A stretch of DNA of 41,581 nt. Source: a virus. Shown here piece by piece: positions 9,165 through 41,581 of the stretch; the stretch's first letter is position 1; each line of letters opens with the position of its first letter. Under the pieces are notes generated by a model that was not told where the DNA came from, ran no database searches, and saw nothing but the letters and a program-made list of their open reading frames with translations. A program made the translations under genes and the position numbers. The DNA is taken from IMG/VR virus record IMGVR_UViG_3300042484_000751, positions 1-41,581 of that record; one strand, given 5' to 3'.

Positions 9165-12100
9165 TTAAGGATGTGTCTTTTTGTATGCCTCAAAGTCTGC
9201 TTTCAATTCCTTAATGGCTTCAACCAGAACACCAATCACGTTGGTATACTTAATACCCATGTAACCGTCATCATCAGTTGTTACTACTTCTGGTAAGACT
9301 TCTTTAACTTCCTGGGCAATCATACCGATTGCAGATGTATTGCTGTCTTTCCATGTGAAGGTAACACCGCGTAGAGCATCAACAGCATCCAAAGCACCCG
9401 TAACAGTCATGATATTCTTCTTCAATCTCTTATCTGATGAAGAATTGTAATCAGTAGATGTTAACAAACCTGTAGAAGGATTAAAGAACAGCTTAGTATT
9501 AGAAATAGTTTGCGGAAGGTTACCAGATGTTGACGAGACGAAAGTTGGAAAAAAGCTTGCGTTGGTTGAGGTATCGTTAGTAATAGCAGTATTGGTAGCG
9601 TTTGTTGCCGCAGCTACCGTACCAGATACGCTTACGGTAACGGCTCCTGTTCCTCCACTTACAGAAATATTAGTACCAGCTACCAGGCTTGTTACACCGG
9701 TATTAGTAATAGTTTGATTTGGAAAACTTCCTGATACGCTTATAGCCGTTCCTGCAACTGTGGCAGGAGAAGAAGTTCCTGTACCTCCATTAGCTACTGG
9801 TAATGTACCTGTAACGCCAGACGATAATGGTAATCCCGTTCCACTAGTCAATACAATAGCTGAAGGGGTCCCTAGTGCTGGAGTAACAAGAGTTGGGCTA
9901 TTTGCAAATACCAATGCACCTGAACCAGTTTCATCTGAAATAACTCCTGCTAATTGCGAAGATGTTGTTGCTCCAAATTGAGCTAGAGTTCCTGCAGTTG
10001 TGGCAATTCCTGTCACTGCTCCTGAACTACCGTTAACAGAGATGACCCCGGTGTTAGTAATAACAGGTGTTGAACCTTCTCCGGTAGCTGTACCTACTGT
10101 GATACCACTACCAGCAGTCATTGAGGTTACATAATCTCCTGTTGTATCTGTACCAAGACGAACAGAATTAGGTTGAATACTTGCATTAAATGTACCGCCA
10201 TCGGCAGTACCAATAGTAAAGGTGTTACCTGAAGCGCTGAAAGTTGATACACCAGCAACGTTAACGTTAGCTGCGCTGGTAATTCGACCGAAGGTATCAA
10301 CCGTAAATACTGGTACCTTGGCTGCACCGCCGTATGTATTAGCTGTAACACCGGATGCTCCAGCAACTGTTGTACCATTAATTTTAAATACTTTACCTGA
10401 AGCTAGATCTATGTCTTGGCTAGATGTCCAAGCATTAGAAGTACTATTATAAAGATAAGTTGCATTTGCTCCAGCAACAGCAATACCGGCGCCATTAGCG
10501 GCTGCGCTATTAGTAGAGCCGCTGGCAACTGTAATAATCTTATCGGCGGTGGACAGTGTAGCAGAGGATACAGTTGTTGTGGTACCTGTAACTTGCAAGT
10601 TACCAGTTATTATCATGTCATGATTGACCGTGGTAGAACCGGTGGCTGCTCCCACTGACAATGTAGTAGCTGCTTTTGCAAAGTTAACCGTTGTTGCAGT
10701 TGTATTAATTAGATCAAATGATGCACTCGGGGTAGTAAGTGATGTTGTAATTGCTGGGCTTGTACCAAATACTAATACACCGGTACCGGTCTCATCGGTA
10801 ATTAATGTACGTAAATTAGCACTTGTAGGTTCTTGACCTAAGAATGTAGCAACTCCAGTACCAAAACCAGTAATATCTGTATCAAGACGAACAGAATTAG
10901 GTTGGATACTAGCATTAAATGTACCGCCATCTGCTGTACCAATTGTAAACGTGTTACCAGAGGCTGCAAATGTAGAAACACCGGCTACATTAACGTTAGC
11001 TGCGCTAGTAATTCTACCAAAGGTATCAACTGTAAATACCGGTACCTTGGCTGCACCGCCGTATGTATTAGCTGTAACACCGGATATTGCTAAAGATATG
11101 GTAGGTGTAGCATCTTCAGTACCAAAATTCGTACCCGTTAGACCTGTTCCAGGTACAACATTAGAAAGATAATTACCAGTAGTATCTCTACCTAGAACAA
11201 CTGAGTCTGGTTGAATACTTGCAGAGAATGTACCACCATCGGCAGTACCAATTGTAAACGTGTTACCAGAGGCTGCAAATGTAGAAACACCGGCTACGTT
11301 AACGTTAGCTGCGCTGGTAATTCGACCGAAGGTATCAACTGTAAATACTGGCACCTTGGCTGCTCCACCGTAAGTATTAGCAGTAACTCCAGAGGCTCCA
11401 ACAGCTGTTGTACCATTAATCTTCAGCACTTTACCAGAAGCAAGATTAATATCTTGGCTAGAAGTCCATGCAGTAGTTGCATGTACGTAGTTAAATGTAG
11501 CACTTGCACCATCAACGGTAATACCAGCTCCATCAGCAGCAGTACTGTTGGCAGCACCCTTGGCAATAGTAATGTTCTTATCAGCAACCTCAAGGGTTGT
11601 AGAAGAAACTGTAGTTGTCGAGCCAAGGACGATTAAGTTCCCATTAACAGTAACATTACCAGCTGTTAGATCACCAGCTCCGGATCCGCTTGGCGTTACC
11701 ACCGACAAGCCCCCGGCATTGTTGGTAAGTTGCAAACCACCCAGGTGAATAGTATTACCAGCTAGATAAAGATCTTTAAACTGATTAGTTGGGCTACCCA
11801 GGCTTTGAATTAAATTACCTGAAGGAATTAAATTACCAACCGTAATATTCTGTCCAGTTAATGCAGTTGCAAGCATTACATTAGAGATTGCACCGGTTGA
11901 ACCTCCAACCGATTCTACCAATGCGCTAACAATTATACCAGTTGCCTGTTCAACCCACTGTGAACTTGTACCATCGTCAAAGTATAAGTACGTAGTTCCG
12001 TCATCTTCATCAATCCATTGATCACCAATGTTCGGTGAACCAGGAGCATTTGCAGATACGGTAACATTTGCAATATTGGTAAAGTTAAATACACCAGTAC

Positions 12101-15100
12101 TGTTATTATATTGACCTTTAGTACCTGTTATAGATAAGGCAGCTCTTGCATTAGCATCGGTATATGTACCAGATGCAGATATGATACCGTTTGCAGTATC
12201 ATATGTAATACCAGTACCGGCTGTTATAGATTGTCTGGATCTAGCATTTGTAAAATACAGATTTGTTAATTCGGCAACATCAGCTGTAGTAATTGTACTT
12301 ACAGGTTTCTGTATAACAATATTACCAACCATTCCTGCGTGAACGGAGCATTGATAGACATATGTACTGCCGTTTAATGAATATGGTACTTTCCAAAATA
12401 ATTTACCAGTAACCTTGCCTTGAGCAGAAGAACCGGTTGTTACAGTTCCATCAGTTGCTACATGTGTTAAACCTGTATCGTAATTTGATCCTCCAGATGA
12501 TACTCTGATCATGAAAGGGTGACCGGTAACATTTAAATCAAATGATATAGTTTCCCCGGCAGTTACATAAATTGTAGGATTATTGCCAGAATATGAATCT
12601 AACAAAAAGTTCATTCCACTATTAGTAACCGCTAGTTGTGTTACTGCTGGTATTTCTGCAAGTATAGCTCTTGAATTAGAAAAATATAGATTAGTTAATT
12701 CAGCTACGTTTGCAGTCGTTAATACACCAGAAGATGTAACGGCAGAAGCAAGTTGTGCATTAGATACAGCACCGGTTGCTCCACCAACAGAAGAAACGCC
12801 TGATACAAGGGCTACGTTGGCAGCAGATGTAATTCTACCGAATTCATCAACGTTAATAACAGGAATATTCAACGCACTACCATATGTAGTAGCAATAACA
12901 CCTGTCTTAGCTTCACCGCTCAACAACGTTGCAACGTTACCGCCCAGACCAGATACCCCGGTACTGATTGGCAACCCTGTTGCATTGGTAAGAGTAGCTG
13001 AAGAAGGCGTTCCAAGTGCTGGAGTTACCAACGTCGGGCTGTTACTAAACACTACATTACCAGAACCTGTTTCATCGGTAATAGCAAATGCAAGCTTAGC
13101 ACTTGTTGGATCTGCCAAGAACGTTGCAACGTTAGCACCAAGACCGCTGACTCCAGAACTAATTGGCAATCCAGTTGCATTAGTCAATACCGCTGTTGAA
13201 GGAGTACCGAGGTTAGGTGTTGTAAGTACTGGGCTTGTTGAGAATACAACGTTACCGGTACCTGTCTCATCAGAGATTAAAGTAGCAAGTTCAGCAGATG
13301 TGGTTGAAGCAAATTGTGAAAGACCGTTAGCAGTGCTTGCAATACCGGTAACAGCACCAACTTGTCCATTAACAGATGTAACTTTAGCAGCTGTGTACGT
13401 GGTGCTGATTTCAGAACCATTCCACACACCAGTAGTAATAGTACCAACTGATGTTAAGTTAGATGCAACAACGTTAGGACCAAGGCCAGTTGCACTCAAT
13501 ACCTGGTTATTGTTTACTTTGTAAACCTTACCAGTAGCAAGATCAACATCTTGGCTAGAAGTAAATGCTGTAGTGGCGTGCACGTAGTTTAACGTTGCAT
13601 TAGCACCATCGATTGTGATACCTGCACCATCGGCGGTTGCGCTATCAGCAGCGCCTTTGGCTAAAGTAATATTTTTATCTGCAACATTTAATGTTGTGGA
13701 TGATACAGTTGTTGTAGTACCTTGAACAACCAAGTTACCAGCAATAACCATATTATTTAATATGTTAGTATTACCAGTAGCAGCACCAATGTTAACTGTA
13801 GTACCTGCTCCAGCAAAATTAACTGTAGTCGCACCTGTATTAACTAAGTCAAAAGATCCACTAGGTGTAGTTAATGATGTAGTGATTGCTGGACTCGTAC
13901 CAAATACCAATGCACCGGTACCGGTCTCATCAGTAATATAAGCTGCTAAGTTAGCGCTTGTAGGTTCTTGACCTAAAAATGTAGCTGTACCAGTACCTAA
14001 ACCACTGACACCAGTACTGATTGGCAGACCAGTCGCGTTTGTTAGAGTAGCAGCAGATGGTGTTCCTAAGTTAGGAGTAACCATGACTGGTGAGTTAGAG
14101 AACAGAATATTACCTGTTCCTGTTTCATCGGTGACTGCAGCTGCAAGATTAGCAGAAGAAGGCGTTGCTAAGAAAGTTGCTACACCAGTACCGAGTCCGC
14201 TGATACCTGTTGCGACTGGCAAACCTGTTGCGTTAGTCAATACTGCGTAAGAAGCTGTACCAATGTTAGGAGTAATTAAAACTGGGCTATCAGAGAATAC
14301 CAAGGAACCAGAACCGGTTTCATCTGAAACAAGAGTTCTAACTTCTGCGGAAGTAGTAGAGGCAAATTGTGCTAGTGAGTTAGCTGTGGTTGCAAAACCA
14401 GTAGCATTACCTGTCTGACCGTTAACAGACAAAACACCAGAGTTATTAATAGTAGGTGTTGTACCTTCGTTACCGAGACCGGAAATTGTAATACCGGTAC
14501 CAGCAACCAAGTTACTAACATACGCACCAGTAGTATCACGACCTAAAGTAACAGAATCTGGCTGAATAGAGGCAGAGAATGAACCGCCATCGGCAGTACC
14601 AATTGTAAAAGTATTACCAGAAGCGGTAAATGTTGAAACACCTGCAACACTGACGTTAGCGGCAGAAGTAATTCTACCGAATGTATCAACTGTAATAACT
14701 GGGACTTGAGAAGCACCACCGTAGGTGTTGGCAGTGACACCAGATGTATTTAAAGAGACATTACCTGTTGTAGCATTGTATGCAATTGGACCACCAGCAG
14801 CTGCATCAATTGAATTGCGTGCTCTTGATGTGGTGAAATACAGATTACCACCTTCGGCAACATTAGATGTATTCAATACACCTGATGCGGTAATACCAGC
14901 TGCCAATTGAGCATTTGATATAGCACCAGTAGCACCACCAACCGAAGTAACACCGCCGGTAATTGTAATTACACCAGTAGTATTATCATAGGAACCAGCG
15001 CCAGCAACTGAAATTGCAGCTCTTGCTCGCGCATTTGTAAAGTACTGATTAGTACCTTCAGTTACTGTGGTTGTGGTAAGAGCGGTGGAATTTAATTTCC

Positions 15101-15194
15101 ATGCTGAACCATTGTATGTCCAAGTCTTACCACCAAATGCATATGTATCATTGGTATTTGGACTTGATGGAAAATTAAGTGTTGCACCTGACAT
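9165..15194 (-). CDS. Giant tail fibre with internal cupredoxin fold and C-terminal S74 chaperone
   Basis: A 2009-residue fibre. Residues 1-36 repeat the LNFPSSPxxNxTYxFxGKTW module of the 842-residue fibre. Most of the chain is alternating repeat modules: SDETGTGxLVFxxSP with TNATGLPxxTGxSGLG, TYGGAxxVPVxTVDTFGRI, and NLxVxGTTTTVSSTTL. About residues 855-965 form a plastocyanin-like domain with H892 in GHPFM and C949, H952 and M955 in CSVHAGM. About 1045-1085 is a GDQWID...YFDDG...WVE module also found in the 501-residue fibre. The last 90 residues are an S74 intramolecular chaperone (SSDKRLKKNI, predicted dyad S1920 and K1925), which would trimerise the fibre and cut itself off. It has its own late promoter and an AAGGAA ribosome site. 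Confidence 0.92.
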   Translation of the reverse strand: MSGATLNFPSSPNTNDTYAFGGKTWTYNGSAWKLNSTALTTTTVTEGTNQYFTNARARAAISVAGAGSYDNTTGVITITGGVTSVGGATGAISNAQLAAGITASGVLNTSNVAEGGNLYFTTSRARNSIDAAAGGPIAYNATTGNVSLNTSGVTANTYGGASQVPVITVDTFGRITSAANVSVAGVSTFTASGNTFTIGTADGGSFSASIQPDSVTLGRDTTGAYVSNLVAGTGITISGLGNEGTTPTINNSGVLSVNGQTGNATGFATTANSLAQFASTTSAEVRTLVSDETGSGSLVFSDSPVLITPNIGTASYAVLTNATGLPVATGISGLGTGVATFLATPSSANLAAAVTDETGTGNILFSNSPVMVTPNLGTPSAATLTNATGLPISTGVSGLGTGTATFLGQEPTSANLAAYITDETGTGALVFGTSPAITTSLTTPSGSFDLVNTGATTVNFAGAGTTVNIGAATGNTNILNNMVIAGNLVVQGTTTTVSSTTLNVADKNITLAKGAADSATADGAGITIDGANATLNYVHATTAFTSSQDVDLATGKVYKVNNNQVLSATGLGPNVVASNLTSVGTITTGVWNGSEISTTYTAAKVTSVNGQVGAVTGIASTANGLSQFASTTSAELATLISDETGTGNVVFSTSPVLTTPNLGTPSTAVLTNATGLPISSGVSGLGANVATFLADPTSAKLAFAITDETGSGNVVFSNSPTLVTPALGTPSSATLTNATGLPISTGVSGLGGNVATLLSGEAKTGVIATTYGSALNIPVINVDEFGRITSAANVALVSGVSSVGGATGAVSNAQLASAVTSSGVLTTANVAELTNLYFSNSRAILAEIPAVTQLAVTNSGMNFLLDSYSGNNPTIYVTAGETISFDLNVTGHPFMIRVSSGGSNYDTGLTHVATDGTVTTGSSAQGKVTGKLFWKVPYSLNGSTYVYQCSVHAGMVGNIVIQKPVSTITTADVAELTNLYFTNARSRQSITAGTGITYDTANGIISASGTYTDANARAALSITGTKGQYNNSTGVFNFTNIANVTVSANAPGSPNIGDQWIDEDDGTTYLYFDDGTSSQWVEQATGIIVSALVESVGGSTGAISNVMLATALTGQNITVGNLIPSGNLIQSLGSPTNQFKDLYLAGNTIHLGGLQLTNNAGGLSVVTPSGSGAGDLTAGNVTVNGNLIVLGSTTTVSSTTLEVADKNITIAKGAANSTAADGAGITVDGASATFNYVHATTAWTSSQDINLASGKVLKINGTTAVGASGVTANTYGGAAKVPVFTVDTFGRITSAANVNVAGVSTFAASGNTFTIGTADGGTFSASIQPDSVVLGRDTTGNYLSNVVPGTGLTGTNFGTEDATPTISLAISGVTANTYGGAAKVPVFTVDTFGRITSAANVNVAGVSTFAASGNTFTIGTADGGTFNASIQPNSVRLDTDITGFGTGVATFLGQEPTSANLRTLITDETGTGVLVFGTSPAITTSLTTPSASFDLINTTATTVNFAKAATTLSVGAATGSTTVNHDMIITGNLQVTGTTTTVSSATLSTADKIITVASGSTNSAAANGAGIAVAGANATYLYNSTSNAWTSSQDIDLASGKVFKINGTTVAGASGVTANTYGGAAKVPVFTVDTFGRITSAANVNVAGVSTFSASGNTFTIGTADGGTFNASIQPNSVRLGTDTTGDYVTSMTAGSGITVGTATGEGSTPVITNTGVISVNGSSGAVTGIATTAGTLAQFGATTSSQLAGVISDETGSGALVFANSPTLVTPALGTPSAIVLTSGTGLPLSSGVTGTLPVANGGTGTSSPATVAGTAISVSGSFPNQTITNTGVTSLVAGTNISVSGGTGAVTVSVSGTVAAATNATNTAITNDTSTNASFFPTFVSSTSGNLPQTISNTKLFFNPSTGLLTSTDYNSSSDKRLKKNIMTVTGALDAVDALRGVTFTWKDSNTSAIGMIAQEVKEVLPEVVTTDDDGYMGIKYTNVIGVLVEAIKELKADFEAYKKTHP
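10312..10356. repeat. 45-base direct repeat, copy 1 (fibre gene)
   Basis: Identical over 45 bases to 11041-11085. It encodes part of the TYGGAAKVPVFTVDTF module and belongs to a longer diverged unit that includes 10190-10360. Confidence 0.85.
10936..10988. repeat. 53-base direct repeat, copy 1 (fibre gene)
   Basis: Identical over 53 bases to 11245-11297, at a 309-base offset, inside a longer near-identical unit (about 10921-11085 against 11230-11394). It encodes the ASGNTFTIGTADGG region. Confidence 0.85.
11041..11085. repeat. 45-base direct repeat, copy 2 (fibre gene)
   Basis: Second exact copy of 10312-10356, 729 bases away (243 codons), so recombination between the copies would stay in frame. 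Confidence 0.85.
11245..11297. repeat. 53-base direct repeat, copy 2 (fibre gene)
   Basis: Second exact copy of 10936-10988. The 309-base spacing is 103 codons, so unequal exchange would lengthen or shorten the fibre without a frameshift. Confidence 0.85.
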
Positions 15195-35306: not shown

Positions 35307-37154
35307 TTATACTGAAGAGGTTACAGTAATAGTTGTACCGGCAACCAAGCCCCCGGCCTTATTAGTTGTAGTATCATCTAGTAGTAAAATTTCATTTCTT
35401 GAAACAGTCAAATTATAATTAGCTTCCTGTATAGTTCCTGTAATCCGGATATCCGTTACTCCGGCTGGAATACCCGATGGAGTAATACCAGTTAAAGAGA
35501 TAATTCCTGTTCCATAATCTACTGTACCGACATTTGAAGATACAATAGCATTATTAACGATATTAACAAGCCTTAGTACACCAGAGCCGTTATCGTTTGG
35601 AGGGGTATCATTTGGAAGATCTGTAATTTTTACCAGCGTCGAAACTCCACTAACAGAGATAAAAAAGAAGCTAGAAAGTATAGACCCAGGCTTTAATGGA
35701 TTTCTAAATTTTACAGCGGTATCCCCGGTAAATAAATTAGTAGTATTTAAAACAGGTATAATTCTACGTTGTAACTTAAGAGTAAGCAAGGCGCTGGTAA
35801 TAGAGTTATTAGTACTGAGAATATCTTTTATCAAAGCTGAATGAATATAATTCTTATTAAACTTTTGTACGTTATTAGTAAAGAAGTTAGTTATGGTAGT
35901 ATTAACCTGGGCTCTTATTTGTTCAGAAGATAAGGTAGTAATAGAAGAATTAAACTTTATATCAGCAGTAAGATTTACAAAGAATAATGAAGGATCAACA
36001 AAGACTGGGGTAACAGTAATACCTTGTTTAGACTTTAGAATATTATTTTTGATTGATTCTTTAGTAGCATCAGAAATAGTAAAAGAGGAAAATGGTTTTA
36101 AGGATATAATTACTCTACCATAATAGGGAGGATCATTATCCTCACCACCCCATACCGAAACAGATTCTGCTCCTGCATAATTAGCTAAGATCAACGCCTC
36201 ATAATCGGTAGCAGTAACTGCTCTGTTCTTTGCTGCATTAACCCTGGGAGCATTAAACTTAATTGAGGTAATGCTTTCAGCATCCGCGCCACCTGTTGAA
36301 TTACTGTTAACGGTAATTGCAATACTACTTGATCCCCCTATTGTGGTTCCGGCGGTAAAGGATTGAGTTATCGTACTTGATACGTTAACTACAGAACCTG
36401 TAGCAACCATGTATTGTATAGTAACGATATTACCAAACGTTAAACTCTTACCTAATACTCCGTCACCGAAAAATATTTGATACTTACCCTGGGGATTCTG
36501 TTCAAGAAAATAGATTTCTGATGTATCACTTATCCCGGTAATATCGGTAGATAGGGAATAGGTGGTAGTTGTGGTATCAGAAGATGAGGTCTGTACGCTG
36601 ACTTTAATAGTAGTTGTATCTACCGATTCACTGGGTATCTCGTATTTTGCATTAGGTGTGATATCGGTAACAACATAACTAAAAGACAGCAAAGTACCTT
36701 CCGTAACATCGGTATCAGCAAAAGTGTAGGTTGTACCTACCCTGGAAGCAGTCTTAGCCTCGGTGGTAAGGAAAGTATATGATATCCCATCTACTGTAGA
36801 TGTAAAGGGAGTATATCGATCCATTGTCAAGGATGCAGGCAAGTTAGATGGATTGGTAACTACTATGTCTAAGTTTGCTACTGCCCCCCTTGCCGATACC
36901 GGTGTATAACCTAAATGCTTGGCAATAGAAACTGCAGAAGATCTCTTAACTGCAGAATCTAAGAACATCTCATTTACCACCATATTAGCCAGATAAGCGT
37001 TGTAATGGGTATTATAGGCTAAGATATCCAATAGAGTAGATAATCCTGATCCTTCAAAATCATAATCGGTAAATTCGGTTTGAGCGTTTAAAAACGTTTT
37101 TAAGTTTGACTTAATTTGATCAAAATCAAGTTCGGCTATTCTTAGATTAGACAT
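35307..37154 (-). CDS. 6: Baseplate wedge protein gp6
   Basis: The central wedge component, a baseplate J-like protein that joins neighbouring wedges in the inner ring and supports the sheath-to-hub switch. The 615 residues start MSNLRIAELDFDQIKSNLKT and include FTDYDFEGSGLSTLLDILAY and NTHYNAYLANMVVNEMFLDS, the strongest family signature, followed by GYTPVSARGAVANLDI. A J-like core segment is VNAAKNRAVTATDYEALILA followed by VSVWGGEDNDPPYYGRVIIS. T4 gp6 is 660 residues. The ATG shares one base with the gp25 stop. Confidence 0.95.
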   Translation of the reverse strand: MSNLRIAELDFDQIKSNLKTFLNAQTEFTDYDFEGSGLSTLLDILAYNTHYNAYLANMVVNEMFLDSAVKRSSAVSIAKHLGYTPVSARGAVANLDIVVTNPSNLPASLTMDRYTPFTSTVDGISYTFLTTEAKTASRVGTTYTFADTDVTEGTLLSFSYVVTDITPNAKYEIPSESVDTTTIKVSVQTSSSDTTTTTYSLSTDITGISDTSEIYFLEQNPQGKYQIFFGDGVLGKSLTFGNIVTIQYMVATGSVVNVSSTITQSFTAGTTIGGSSSIAITVNSNSTGGADAESITSIKFNAPRVNAAKNRAVTATDYEALILANYAGAESVSVWGGEDNDPPYYGRVIISLKPFSSFTISDATKESIKNNILKSKQGITVTPVFVDPSLFFVNLTADIKFNSSITTLSSEQIRAQVNTTITNFFTNNVQKFNKNYIHSALIKDILSTNNSITSALLTLKLQRRIIPVLNTTNLFTGDTAVKFRNPLKPGSILSSFFFISVSGVSTLVKITDLPNDTPPNDNGSGVLRLVNIVNNAIVSSNVGTVDYGTGIISLTGITPSGIPAGVTDIRITGTIQEANYNLTVSRNEILLLDDTTTNKAGGLVAGTTITVTSSV

Positions 37155-37549
37155 TATCTTATTCTTGTTATTAATGTGGTTAAAGTAATGGGTCTATCGG
37201 AGTTATTTAATCTAAAAATTATATCGCAAATAATATCATTTTCATCGACTTTTTCTCGCAAACTTATTTCTAATACCGTTACTCTAGGCTCGAACTTAGA
37301 AATTGTATCTATAATAGTCTTTTTCATGACCTGTACTGTTACAGGGTTAAAGTTCTCAAATAAAAGACCATGTATTTGACAACCAATCTCTGGATGAAAG
37401 GGACGCTCGTAATGTCTCGTAGACACTAAATTTCTAAGAGATTGCTTGACTGCTTCTTCATCGTTCTTTTTTAATACGTCGCCGGTGACCGGATGAATAG
37501 AAAAAAGAAGATTTAAGTCTGAATATTGTCTGGTATTTCTGGTAGCCAT
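37154..37549 (-). CDS. 25: Baseplate wedge protein gp25
   Basis: The 131-residue GPW/gp25-family protein links the wedge core to the first sheath disc and starts sheath polymerisation. It begins MATRNTRQYSDLNLLFSIHP and carries the family hallmarks RHYERPFHPEIGCQIHGLLF, ENFNPVT and the FEPRVTVLEI strand. The ATG at 37547-37549 was chosen over the GTG at 37594 because the longer form would overlap the PAAR gene and adds a tail not seen in the family. No Shine-Dalgarno sequence precedes it, and a perfect TATAAATA ends only five bases upstream, so late mRNA may be leaderless here. It is TAATG-coupled to gp6. Confidence 0.93.
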   Translation of the reverse strand: MATRNTRQYSDLNLLFSIHPVTGDVLKKNDEEAVKQSLRNLVSTRHYERPFHPEIGCQIHGLLFENFNPVTVQVMKKTIIDTISKFEPRVTVLEISLREKVDENDIICDIIFRLNNSDRPITLTTLITRIR

Positions 37550-37554
37550 GTTTA

Positions 37555-37562
37555 TATTTATA
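37555..37562 (-). promoter_or_regulatory. T4-type late promoter directly before gp25
   Basis: Perfect TATAAATA on the minus strand, beginning immediately after the PAAR stop codon (37563-37565) and ending five bases before the gp25 ATG. The predicted start site coincides with the ATG. Confidence 0.7.
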
Positions 37563-37808
37563 TCAGTTTGCGAAGGTATTCGAGCTTCCTTCACGGATAC
37601 TATCGTTTCTTGTGTCTCTATCTCCTATTCTACAAATCCCTCTTCCGTTTGCAAAAACTTTAGAGCTTCCCCCTACCATTGTATCCAGGCGTGTATCCCT
37701 ATCACCGATTCTAACAACACCAAACCCGTTTACAAAAACGGTAGAGCTTCCATTATTCTTAGTATCGTTTCTGGTGTCTTTATCACCAATTCTTGCAATC
37801 CCAGCCAT
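37563..37808 (-). CDS. PAAR-type spike tip protein with three internal repeats
   Basis: The 81-residue needle tip corresponds to T4 gp5.4. It is made of three near-identical units of 27-28 residues, each RIGDxDTRxDxxxxGSSxxFxNGxG (RIGD at residues 6, 33 and 60). This would give the pseudo-threefold fold that caps a trimeric spike with a single chain. It contains no His, so the usual PAAR zinc site is not evident. The only candidate ligand is Cys59. It starts on the last base of the spike gene (37808) and is followed directly by the gp25 promoter. Confidence 0.88.
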   Translation of the reverse strand: MAGIARIGDKDTRNDTKNNGSSTVFVNGFGVVRIGDRDTRLDTMVGGSSKVFANGRGICRIGDRDTRNDSIREGSSNTFAN

Positions 37809-40096
37809 TATGCTAATTGTGTTAGACCCTGGGAGTGGGTCTTATGGTTATAGAAAGTTAATACCTGACTTCTATTCTTAACAGAATAGGAAATATGAAT
37901 CCAAGGATTTTTTGCATAGCTGCAATACTCTAATATCATTTGATCGTATTTAAGAACTTTTGCAAGTTTAGTAGCTATTTCAAAATATTCTTTCTTTGTA
38001 ATGCCTTTAAATTGTATATCTACGCCTTGACCGAGAGGGTGCTGGGAGGTCTTAGCATTAGATGCATTCCCTGGATCCCTGAAGGCTGATGTAACAAACA
38101 TATTAGGGTATATCTTCTTTACTGGTTCAAGCACATTAAGCGCTATAGCCTGTAGATTAAAAATGATTTCCCCGTAAGTAGCTTTTTCATGACCCCGGAT
38201 AAGGTCCCGGGTAACTGCTGCTTTACTTGATAACATCTCAACTGTAAAGTTTGGCGATAGATTATAATTACCTGGCAATTGCGTTACAGTTTTTAACTTA
38301 ACATCTGGTTCAACAAAGTTCTGCTGCTCAGATTCCACTGTTGCATTATCTACTGCAGTCGGTGGTTCTGATAAATCAGCTGCATTAGCAAATCCTTCAC
38401 TTATAATTAAATTCTTTTGACTATTAAAGTCTTCTAGAGATTGAGTTTCTTCTTCTAATGCAATCGACCGACTATCGGCTAAAGAAAGAACCAAAGGATC
38501 ATTTTTATCGTTATCGGTTATATCTTTGCGGCCTGCAATCACCCCAATCTTAGAAGATCCTGCAATAATGCTTTCTTGAGATTCAGAAGCAGCACCGGCA
38601 TTACCTGATTGTAGGTGTGTTTCACTGCCATCGAGATTAACGCTATTACTAGCTAGTAAATTAATTGCTGCACCAGAATCAATATTAGTATTATCTCCAG
38701 CTTTAATATTGATAGCTCCGGCTGCTTGAGTGTAAACAGTATCGGAAACAAAGTCATAGAGATTTGTTGCTTGCACTTTAATATCAGCATTACTACGCAT
38801 ATGCATATTTTCCTTTGAATGCATATTTAATGTAGTAGCTTTTTGATTCATGGTATAGTATGCTTCAATATTTACATTACCACTCGCTATATTAAACTCT
38901 TCTACAGCTGAAAGATTAAACGTGCCTCCTGCCTGGGCGGTAATATCGTTATGACAGGTTAAGTTAACGTCACCCTCTACCTCAATATTAGCATCATTAC
39001 CAACAAAAATATTACACGCACCATTAATTGAAATATCTGCTTTACCAGCTATTGATATTTTTCCATTACGATCAATAATTTCATATGAAGATCCTTTTGT
39101 TCTTTTAACCATCGAGCCATTAGCATCTATTTCAATATAGGTACCAGACTTATGATAAATGTGAAGACGTTCTGAACCTGGGGTATCATCAATTTCAATA
39201 ATATGACCAGATTCAGTTTGAGTTACTTTATTATACGGATATGCACCACGGTAAGCTGACTCGGGTTCATCCCATGCCTCACCTCCAGGGAGTTTGGCAC
39301 CCTTCATCCTATTATTATTTTTTTCTTGAACTATTGTACCCCGGGCATCACCCTGGGCAAGTTTATTAGTCTCTGAAATACCCGCATACTCTTTAGTAGG
39401 GTAATTAGCATTAGGGTCGGTAAACCCTCTTTCTAATACTTCTAATTTTTCTCTATTTTCAGTAGAGTTAATATCAAACTGTTTAGCCTCTTGTAGAGCA
39501 GAATTAGCACCACTTGATACAAATATTTCATCTGCTTTATTTAATGCTTCTTCAGGAGGAAAGTTACCAAATAAAGTTTCAATATTATTAGTTGTTACTT
39601 TAGGTTTCTGACCTCTACCAAATATAGCATCTGCAAAGCCCCCGACTGCAGTAGTAAGAGTCTTTCCAACAGTTGGTGTAATGCCCTGGATTAAGCTTGC
39701 TGATAATGCATCAAAATTTATAATACCTAATTTATCAGTAGGTAGAGATAGTCTTAATTGAGATTGTAATTTACTAACTATCTTATCGGTAGTTTGTAAA
39801 AGTAATTGCTGTTGAATAATACCATCAATGTTATTGCTGATGGTAGTAGGGCTATTATTATTATTAGTAATATTTACCGGATTTATAGATCCAATAATAT
39901 TTTTAGGTATATCGGTAAGTTGTTGATTCGAGGCTTGACTTACCTGCCTTACAATATCAACTGCCCCTACCTCAGCCACCCTCGATATTACCGCCCTTAG
40001 TATAGGGTTAGGTATATTTAAGTTGAGAGCAATAATCTTGTTAAAGATACTGTTCTCAAGTACACCTTGTATTTGTTTAGTTATTAAGGGATCCAT
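37808..40096 (-). CDS. Central spike beta-helix protein with C-terminal M15 peptidase
   Basis: A 762-residue needle protein. Residues about 1-260 are helical and Gln/Asn-rich (LQTTDKIVSKLQSQLRLSL) and may bind the hub. About 295-520 match the gp5/VgrG-type spike: GHIIEIDDTPGSERLHIYHK, SGTYIEIDANGSMVKRTKGS, then repeated short beta strands (SINGACNIFVGNDANIEVEG) typical of a triple-stranded helix. About 600-762 are a D,D-peptidase (M15) domain with zinc ligands H686 and D693 (HPLGQGVD) and H734 (WIHIS), and catalytic E723. T4 has the spike and a lysozyme in one gp5 chain; here the spike is separate and carries a different hydrolase. TAATG-coupled to the upstream OB/hydrolase gene. Confidence 0.88.
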   Translation of the reverse strand: MDPLITKQIQGVLENSIFNKIIALNLNIPNPILRAVISRVAEVGAVDIVRQVSQASNQQLTDIPKNIIGSINPVNITNNNNSPTTISNNIDGIIQQQLLLQTTDKIVSKLQSQLRLSLPTDKLGIINFDALSASLIQGITPTVGKTLTTAVGGFADAIFGRGQKPKVTTNNIETLFGNFPPEEALNKADEIFVSSGANSALQEAKQFDINSTENREKLEVLERGFTDPNANYPTKEYAGISETNKLAQGDARGTIVQEKNNNRMKGAKLPGGEAWDEPESAYRGAYPYNKVTQTESGHIIEIDDTPGSERLHIYHKSGTYIEIDANGSMVKRTKGSSYEIIDRNGKISIAGKADISINGACNIFVGNDANIEVEGDVNLTCHNDITAQAGGTFNLSAVEEFNIASGNVNIEAYYTMNQKATTLNMHSKENMHMRSNADIKVQATNLYDFVSDTVYTQAAGAINIKAGDNTNIDSGAAINLLASNSVNLDGSETHLQSGNAGAASESQESIIAGSSKIGVIAGRKDITDNDKNDPLVLSLADSRSIALEEETQSLEDFNSQKNLIISEGFANAADLSEPPTAVDNATVESEQQNFVEPDVKLKTVTQLPGNYNLSPNFTVEMLSSKAAVTRDLIRGHEKATYGEIIFNLQAIALNVLEPVKKIYPNMFVTSAFRDPGNASNAKTSQHPLGQGVDIQFKGITKKEYFEIATKLAKVLKYDQMILEYCSYAKNPWIHISYSVKNRSQVLTFYNHKTHSQGLTQLA

Positions 40097-41181
40097 TAGG
40101 TAATCAATTTAAGTAGTGCTTGTTTTTCTGATTGATAACGCGATTTAACACCAGCTCGTATAGATTCCGAACTTGATTTAAATAAAGTATCGACGTTATT
40201 AATTTTATATTCGCTTACCAGGGTTACGATGTCTTTATCTGTAAGGGTACTTTTATCTCTTAACGCCTCGGTAAAAGCCTTAATATTAGCAGGACCAAAT
40301 TGTACTGCCCCTGACCAAATTAAATCCTGGACTGCAGGCCCGTACTTAGTTAAATCTAATCCTTTTCTTTGCAGATTTGATACTGCTACATCGTAATATT
40401 TCTTTTGAATATAATCGTGTTGTTCTTTTTTAAAGTCTGCAGCATTTGTAGTTGCAATCTCTTTCCATTTAGCATCAAAGGCAGCCGTGGCAGGTTCTAA
40501 CCCTGCAAATTTTTCTTTAAACTTAGAGTTGTTTAAAAATTGAATAACAGGAGAGTTTTTAGCTGATGGTCTTGCTTTACCTGTTGACATAACTGCTGGT
40601 AAGAAAGATGCAAGTTGATAGGTACCGTAAGATGCACCACCTAGATCGCCACCTGCACCTCCATTGTACGCATTAATCGTACCTGGACCCTTGCCACCGG
40701 ATTCATATTTTTCAGATGTTTGACCAAGCTCCCAACCTTCAACAGTTGGTGTACCGACCTTAACTGGCTCACCTTGACCGTCAACAACTATATTACCTGA
40801 ACCGTCTTTAAGTACTCCATCGTTAGGGTTAGATACTTGAGGTTTTTCTTCTAGTACTCTAAATGCTTTATTAGCTGCCTTGGTTGCAATAGTACCAAAG
40901 ATGGCCGGTTGCTGCATGTCTTCACCATCAAGGAAGAATCCAATGACCCATGTACCTTCAACAGGCCCTAGCGGTGAAGAACCAATACCTGAAATGGCAG
41001 CCGAGGTGATAGGTTGTATAGGAGTTGCCCAGGGAAGATCTTTTGTAGGAAGAATTACTTTATTGTCTGTATGATAGCCGTATATACGAACTCTACATCT
41101 ACCCATTTTTTCAGGATCCATGCGATCTTCTACGACCCCAATCCACCAATTAAAACCATCCTTGTTAAAAATTCTTTGCAT
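40096..41181 (-). CDS. 5: gp5-like hub OB-fold protein fused to a VgrG3-like cell-wall hydrolase
   Basis: Residues 1-100 are the gp5 N-terminal OB domain (WWIGVVEDRMDPEKMGRCRV, LPWATPIQPITSAAISGIGS, then GTWVIGFFLDGEDMQQPAIF), which mounts the spike on the hub. After a Gly-rich linker, residues about 150-361 resemble the C-terminal hydrolase of VgrG3: YESGGKGPGTINAYNGG and GGDLGGASYGTYQLAS, with probable catalytic acid E160 and conserved D179. This replaces the T4-type lysozyme of gp5 and would cut the peptidoglycan glycan chain. The spike gene starts on its last base. Confidence 0.9.
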   Translation of the reverse strand: MQRIFNKDGFNWWIGVVEDRMDPEKMGRCRVRIYGYHTDNKVILPTKDLPWATPIQPITSAAISGIGSSPLGPVEGTWVIGFFLDGEDMQQPAIFGTIATKAANKAFRVLEEKPQVSNPNDGVLKDGSGNIVVDGQGEPVKVGTPTVEGWELGQTSEKYESGGKGPGTINAYNGGAGGDLGGASYGTYQLASFLPAVMSTGKARPSAKNSPVIQFLNNSKFKEKFAGLEPATAAFDAKWKEIATTNAADFKKEQHDYIQKKYYDVAVSNLQRKGLDLTKYGPAVQDLIWSGAVQFGPANIKAFTEALRDKSTLTDKDIVTLVSEYKINNVDTLFKSSSESIRAGVKSRYQSEKQALLKLIT

Positions 41182-41183
41182 AA

Positions 41184-41581
41184 TTAAACTTTCTCAATAC
41201 TTTCTTGATCGACAAATAAAGAATCTTTTATTACTTCCATTACCATTTGATGTTCAAATTTATTTACTTTATGATGTATAGCAGTAATAAGATAGTACCC
41301 AGAATATAGTTTATCTTGAGCAGTTGAACCGGTATCACTTTCACTTTTACCACCCATTGAAGGGTACTCAAAATAAATTAATCTCCCTACTTCTGCATCC
41401 GTTCTACCTGGTACAGTCATATTCATTTTAATATTGGTAAGTTCAAGCATACTTGATAAACGATTACCATGAATCTCGCCCATTTTTTCGCTTACGTTAT
41501 CAGCATAGTCATTAAATAGTTTTGGATTTTTAGGGTAAAAACTTATGTTGGTTGCAAAATTTCTAAATGTTTCATTATTAA
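41184..41581 (-). CDS. Baseplate hub protein, gp27/gpD-like (partial, N-terminus beyond window)
   Basis: The frame is open to the window end, so only the last 131 codons are seen. The fragment reads FYPKNPKLFNDYADNVSEKM, then LTNIKMNMTVPGRTDAEVGR, LIYFEYPS and YSGYYLITAIHHKVNKFEHQ, ending in KDSLFVDQESIEKV. The pattern NMTVPGRxDxEVGRLIxxxxP...SGxYLIxxIxH is typical of hub proteins of the gp27 / VgrG-N / gpD superfamily. It ends two bases before the gp5-like gene, as expected for the hub that carries the spike. The internal Met at 41483 is not the start. Confidence 0.65.
   Translation of the reverse strand, partial: NNETFRNFATNISFYPKNPKLFNDYADNVSEKMGEIHGNRLSSMLELTNIKMNMTVPGRTDAEVGRLIYFEYPSMGGKSESDTGSTAQDKLYSGYYLITAIHHKVNKFEHQMVMEVIKDSLFVDQESIEKV

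Follow-up and report, generated by a model that had tools for sequence, protein, structure and literature searches.

IMG/VR virus record IMGVR_UViG_3300042484_000751 is a 41,581-nt fragment of an uncultured T4-like virus (38% G+C), analyzed here in full (41.6 kb; hereafter "the window"), with T4-type baseplate genes on its minus strand. Two adjoining open reading frames (ORFs) on that strand, ORF A (40096–41181, 361 aa) and ORF B (37808–40096, 762 aa), have a single base in common, the stop codon of the first and the start codon of the second overlapping as TAATG (40094–40098). Between them, these ORFs carry the parts of the tail hub protein gp5: an OB barrel and a VgrG3-like glycosidase on ORF A, then a helical N-terminal domain, an OB-tail segment, a T4-type beta-helix, and a C-terminal M15 peptidase on ORF B. 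The surrounding gene order is that of a T4-type hub, with a gp27-like gene before ORF A and PAAR, gp25, and gp6 genes after ORF B (Pfam and PHROG profiles).

The OB barrel spans residues 1–104 of ORF A (40870–41181) and was recognized by Pfam Gp5_OB (5.9e-18, profile positions 13–76) and by a match to residues 6–91 of T4 gp5 among PDB sequences (2.4e-23). The segment of residues 148–361 (40099–40740) matches T6SS_VgrG3-like_C (PF21277) as a full domain (2.2e-55, profile positions 1–183 of 183) as well as the VgrG3 entries 4noo and 4nso (~1e-42), and an AlphaFold2 (AF2) model of ORF A recovers both VgrG3 (4nso; Foldseek, 4.5e-13) and T4 gp5, so that the fusion of an OB fold to a VgrG3-like glycosidase, first proposed in an initial annotation of this locus, is borne out. 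The glycosidase is ~42% identical to the C-terminal domain of Vibrio cholerae VgrG3 (4noo, 4nso), although in VgrG3 this domain extends the needle protein at its C-terminus, whereas in ORF A it directly follows the OB barrel. Its predicted catalytic residues, E160 and D179, align to the acidic pair of 4noo and are present in 67/67 and 68/68 distinct VgrG3-like domains, respectively. We take them to be the counterparts of VgrG3 E827 and D842, with which the spacing in 4noo is consistent. The pairing of an OB domain with a VgrG3-like domain was found in none of the annotated phage records searched, and no place in them covered 80% of ORF A.

For ORF B, the initial annotation had listed a beta-helix and an M15 peptidase; both are present, but two further regions had been missed, i.e., a helical domain at residues 1–212 (39461–40096) and the OB-tail at residues 221–265 (39302–39436). 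The predicted trimeric beta-helical spike follows at residues 275–520 (38537–39274; phrog_430), of which residues 275–369 match T4 gp5 376–469 at 1.7e-18, and the AF2 model of the chain retrieves T4-type gp5 in Foldseek at 4e-05 to 1e-04. A variable linker of low conservation and low model confidence (residues 521–599, 38300–38536) connects the spike to the M15 domain (residues 600–762, 37811–38299; R673, H686, D693, E723, and H734), which is clear by structure (1LBU zinc DD-peptidase; Z 11.1, root-mean-square deviation 3.3 over 128 residues) and through its homologues. The ~212-aa helical domain is modeled with a predicted local distance difference test (pLDDT) score mostly between 70 and 91, yet it had no relative in 50,697 phage records (tblastn), and hhalign did not match it to the inserts of other gp5 proteins. 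Bacterial genomes, when scanned, yielded no relative of ORF B. Structural similarity to CNOT1 and efflux-pump helices (VIA-align Z 6–9) was rejected as homology, being at the level expected of any helical bundle. Long inserts between OB and spike also occur in the gp5 proteins of cyanophage ACG-2014d, Xanthomonas phage X1, and IME-SM1, without detectable homology to this domain.

The split point lies inside the Gp5_OB profile itself, with positions 13–76 on ORF A and 78–119 on ORF B. The barrel nevertheless looks complete on ORF A because its OB strands come to an end by residue ~98 in the AF2 model. The second profile portion is the OB-tail (GFTDPNANYP...TNKLAQGD in the window), homologous to about residues 111–140 of T4 gp5 and nearly invariant among relatives; this conserved GFxDPNxxYP...TNxLA segment sits on ORF B, joined to the needle. 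In T4, the OB half comprises residues 1–129 (PMC7650644) and, by alignment, the OB-tail precedes the lysozyme and belongs to that half, unlike in the window.

To evaluate the conservation of the split, IMG/VR was searched with both proteins, yielding 106 loci that carry the A/B pair and 56 distinct junction sequences. No A/B fusion was found among them, and every scored junction displayed either a stop/start overlap (TAATG or ATGA) or a gap of 1–3 nt. In T4, as in BUCT-ZZ01 and Cr30, the nearest relatives with an unsplit gp5, the protein is one polypeptide, which would be expected if ORFs A and B were a single frame interrupted at 40096 through faulty assembly or sequencing. However, the same type of junction recurs in 56 distinct sequences from independent assemblies, none of which fuses the OB-VgrG3 part with the spike; a split is also present in 43 distinct Melnitz-like junctions and in the Melnitz isolates, which were sequenced from culture; and in 23 of 48 distinct junctions the open stretch of frame B upstream of its ATG is no longer than one codon. 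An artefact at 40096, the outcome that the initial annotation had named as fatal to its proposal, is thus rejected, and we consider its probability negligible. The spike genes of a few contigs do contain single in-frame stops (L018:2842, TAA; L094:8274, TAA; L097:2861, TAG), and stops or frame breaks also occur in L026, L061, L065, and L083; their positions differ and sister contigs are intact, and they are probably sequencing errors.

The same junctions bear on whether a programmed frameshift near the overlap could yield some A–B fusion as a single functional chain. The two ORFs overlap in different frames, and an adenine-rich stretch precedes the stop codon of ORF A, both of which are compatible with slippage. 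Yet a frameshift product would hardly be possible in the 23 of 48 junctions where frame B is closed upstream of its ATG, the overlap is replaced by a 1–3 nt gap in some relatives, and no slippery site was common to all relatives in the sequences inspected, which together make a frameshift highly improbable. A second, intact gp5 elsewhere in the genome was likewise rejected, since a single OB locus and a single spike locus were found in each of four relatives of 70–160 kb, the window itself covering only 41.6 kb.

Both chains are maintained by selection. Median ratios of non-synonymous to synonymous substitution rates (dN/dS) were 0.03 for the OB domain, 0.06 for the VgrG3-like domain, 0.14 for the helical domain, 0.06 for the tail and spike, and 0.025 for the M15 domain, i.e., every part of A and B is under purifying selection. 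These values are relevant to the question of whether ORF A belongs to the needle at all: B alone could be the spike, with A an accessory hydrolase whose OB barrel serves another contact, or a relic near loss. The whole beta-helix is indeed on ORF B, and Rhizobium phage RHph_N34 (MN988534/NC_070884), which also encodes an OB-hydrolase protein and a spike in separate genes, has them ~32 kb apart. However, ORF B has no OB barrel, the long relatives contain no further full match to Gp5_OB, the OB domain of A is strongly constrained, and the RHph_N34 OB-CHAP gene adjoins structural and neck genes. We thus regard a role of A outside the needle as quite improbable. RHph_N34 also differs in that its hydrolase is a CHAP and not a VgrG3-like domain and its spike lacks an M15 domain. 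Both of its genes (L130:3058-3825 and L131:1444-3999) are annotated as baseplate hub and tail lysozyme, and its spike protein has a long N-terminal region of its own, with a possible lysozyme-like stretch (aa ~320–500) that has no Pfam name.

Outside the window clade, the closest layout was found in the Methylophilales phages Melnitz EXVC039M/040M/043M/044M (MZ577095–MZ577098), in which two adjacent genes with one common base encode OB plus enzyme, then OB-tail plus spike plus M15, with PAAR next; they are annotated as "OB domain protein" and "baseplate hub subunit/tail lysozyme". This Melnitz-type layout was detected in 52 survey loci, Melnitz included (43 distinct junctions). It differs from the window in that the enzyme of the OB half is a VanY-type M15 peptidase and not a glycosidase, and in that the spike protein has no helical N-terminal domain. 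The cultured Melnitz hub has two distinct peptidases of the M15 type, borne by the OB protein and the spike protein, respectively (L118:2862-5905), and because its OB half has this second peptidase, the combination "glycan plus peptide" does not hold for split hubs in general. The Melnitz paper itself makes no mention of gp5 or of its being split, and we found no paper describing a split gp5 in the open-access literature.

Single-chain gp5 proteins display similar combinations of parts. The gp5 of Synechococcus phage BUCT-ZZ01 (ON615601, 939 aa) has the same order of OB, glycan-type hydrolase, OB-tail, spike, and M15, with the enzyme at the same profile position; it is, however, one chain, its enzyme is a GH19 and not a VgrG3-like domain, and nothing in it matches the helical domain. 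Caulobacter phage Cr30 gp5 (NC_025422, 701 aa) likewise unites lysozyme-type and M15 domains in one hub with PAAR next, but as a single OB-lysozyme-spike-M15 chain with a Phage_lysozyme2 domain (PF18013) and no OB-tail match. An OB-spike-M15 arrangement was found in pf16 gp5, while the M15 domain is instead on the PAAR protein in Ackermannviridae-type Vibrio phages and Pseudomonas phage Milchi, and no recognized hydrolase was found in the gp5 proteins of HTVC008M, Mosig, and ACP17. Beyond T4-type gp5, endoglucanase and peptidase activities have been shown in one contractile-tail hub, gp15 of cyanophage A-1(L) (PMC10966104), where both enzymes belong to the hub protein instead of being borne by OB and spike proteins. 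A glycan cutter and a peptide cutter had been proposed to reside together in the window's hub, and both are predicted there, with conserved catalytic residues; as a distinguishing trait, however, the presence of two hydrolases does not stand, since spikes ending in an M15 domain are found repeatedly in T4-like phages and the single-chain hubs of BUCT-ZZ01 and Cr30 also combine two hydrolases.

The comparison with T4 gp5 itself is two-sided. ORFs A and B share with the gp5 family the OB domain, a wall hydrolase, the beta-helix, and the hub synteny, and depart from it in not being a single polypeptide. T4 gp5 is the product of one gene, cut after Ser351, with a T4-lysozyme-type enzyme after the OB-tail and no M15 domain; a T4-lysozyme-type domain between OB and spike was not found in A/B by Pfam scan, which returned the VgrG3-like and M15 domains instead. 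Many gp5 proteins do not contain this domain, so it is not required for the wider gp5 family. Although the split gene is real, the contrast with T4 had been overstated: the mature T4 hub also consists of separate chains (gp27, gp5*, and gp5C), with the OB-enzyme part and the needle apart (PMC3004832, PMC7650644).

Taken together, we consider it likely, with a probability of about 80%, that A and B make up the center of a T4-type contractile tail, i.e., its hub and needle, with gp5 produced from two neighboring genes as separate chains and the enzyme of its OB half open to exchange. The following observations weigh against this interpretation. The M15 domain of ORF B is weak in Pfam (Peptidase_M15_3, 0.0098; 16.5 bits vs a cut-off of 23.2), as it is in its homologues from Cr30, BUCT-ZZ01, and Melnitz, which score equally low or not at all; the AF2 models are of modest confidence (pLDDT 66.6 for ORF A and 70.3 for ORF B); and missing Shine-Dalgarno motifs are common in the window, so that the one-base overlap is weak evidence of translational coupling. 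The low Pfam score would also fit one or both of the predicted enzymes being inactive and serving only in structure or wall binding. Against this, E160, D179, H686, D693, and H734 are invariant in the aligned sequences, the zinc-ligand set (H686, D693, and H734) being present in all 120 distinct M15 domains, phages outside the window clade included, and E723 in 117 of the 120; in addition, the M15 domain is the most constrained part of ORF B. A loss of catalytic residues in homologues, which would have spoken against two active hydrolases, was therefore not seen, and inactive enzymes appear improbable.

In the two-chain hub that we favor, the OB barrels of chain A would rest on the gp27-like ring and hold three glycosidases next to the needle, and chain B would trimerize as the needle, giving a 3+3 assembly. 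The bond between the chains would be non-covalent and probably made through the OB-tail, which is the best candidate for an A–B contact because both split clades have it on the needle chain and it is nearly invariant; it was detected on the second gene in three long relatives and in Melnitz, and in a fourth long relative only the barrel part was above threshold. The M15 domain, on a flexible linker of ~80 aa, would lie near the PAAR-capped tip. Upon tail contraction, the needle may pass through the outer membrane, after which peptide stems or cross-links would be cleaved by the M15 peptidase, and glycan strands by the glycosidase, an order of action that we infer from the model. The one-base overlap may couple translation and keep the A:B ratio near 1:1. 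Since the enzyme half and the needle half are made as distinct chains to begin with, nothing in this hub would correspond to the cleavage that parts lysozyme from needle in T4, as the initial annotation had suggested. The site after the OB barrel may act as an exchangeable enzyme site, occupied by a VgrG3-like, VanY, CHAP, or GH19 domain in different phages.

How often gp5 was split was evaluated with trees of the OB and spike regions and of the M15 domain, neither of which placed the window clade with Melnitz. When window and Melnitz were constrained to one clade, the approximately unbiased (AU) test gave p = 0.12 on OB plus spike and p = 0.048 on M15, i.e., a single split is not rejected on the former and is borderline on the latter, and two events appear somewhat favored by these alignments. 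The window, its split relatives, split Melnitz, and single-chain BUCT-ZZ01 all show the break in the Gp5_OB profile at one position (about 76/78), and the architecture of BUCT-ZZ01 suggests an order in which enzyme insertion preceded the gene split. As a tentative and somewhat doubtful extension, gp5 may have been split repeatedly among T4-like phages, each time where an enzyme cassette on the OB part meets the needle, with the OB-tail of window and Melnitz hubs clipping the needle to the OB ring in trans; this would provide a two-chain needle free of proteolysis, whose wall enzyme could be swapped for a new host wall while the needle is left untouched.

Overall, this arrangement is conserved in many aquatic phages, rearranges known parts, and exists in cultured phages, and is thus no new kind of machine; what is new, as judged from sequence comparison, is the presence of a VgrG3-like enzyme on the OB half of a T4-type needle encoded by two genes. 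It suggests that a T4-type hub can do without its covalent link to the needle and that different wall hydrolases can be accommodated behind the OB barrel. With split hubs, nature offers a way to ask why T4 synthesizes gp5 in one piece and cleaves it afterwards, and which segment joins needle to hub; the cultured Melnitz phages make the role of the covalent link testable. On a practical level, annotations present such gene pairs either as proteins without relation to each other or as two copies of "gp5".

Among the neighboring minus-strand genes, the gp27-like tail hub gene (41184–41579) is represented by its 3′ part, truncated by the end of the window (phrog_350 positions 312–431 of 436, 3.6e-21). 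The PAAR protein (37563–37808; PAAR_motif, 1.1e-08) overlaps ORF B by one base and is the probable needle cap, a counterpart of T4 gp5.4. The gp25 ORF as listed (37154–37594, minus strand) has a GTG start and a 32-base overlap with PAAR; a likelier start is an ATG 15 codons in (MATRNTRQYSDLN). A cyanophage host is disfavored, as no psbA-type gene was found in eight related contigs of 41–160 kb, which is weak negative evidence. Further along the minus strand (9165–15194), a 2009-aa virion protein contains seven stretches matching phrog_6002 and a C-terminal region resembling baseplate wedge initiator and tail fibre proteins.

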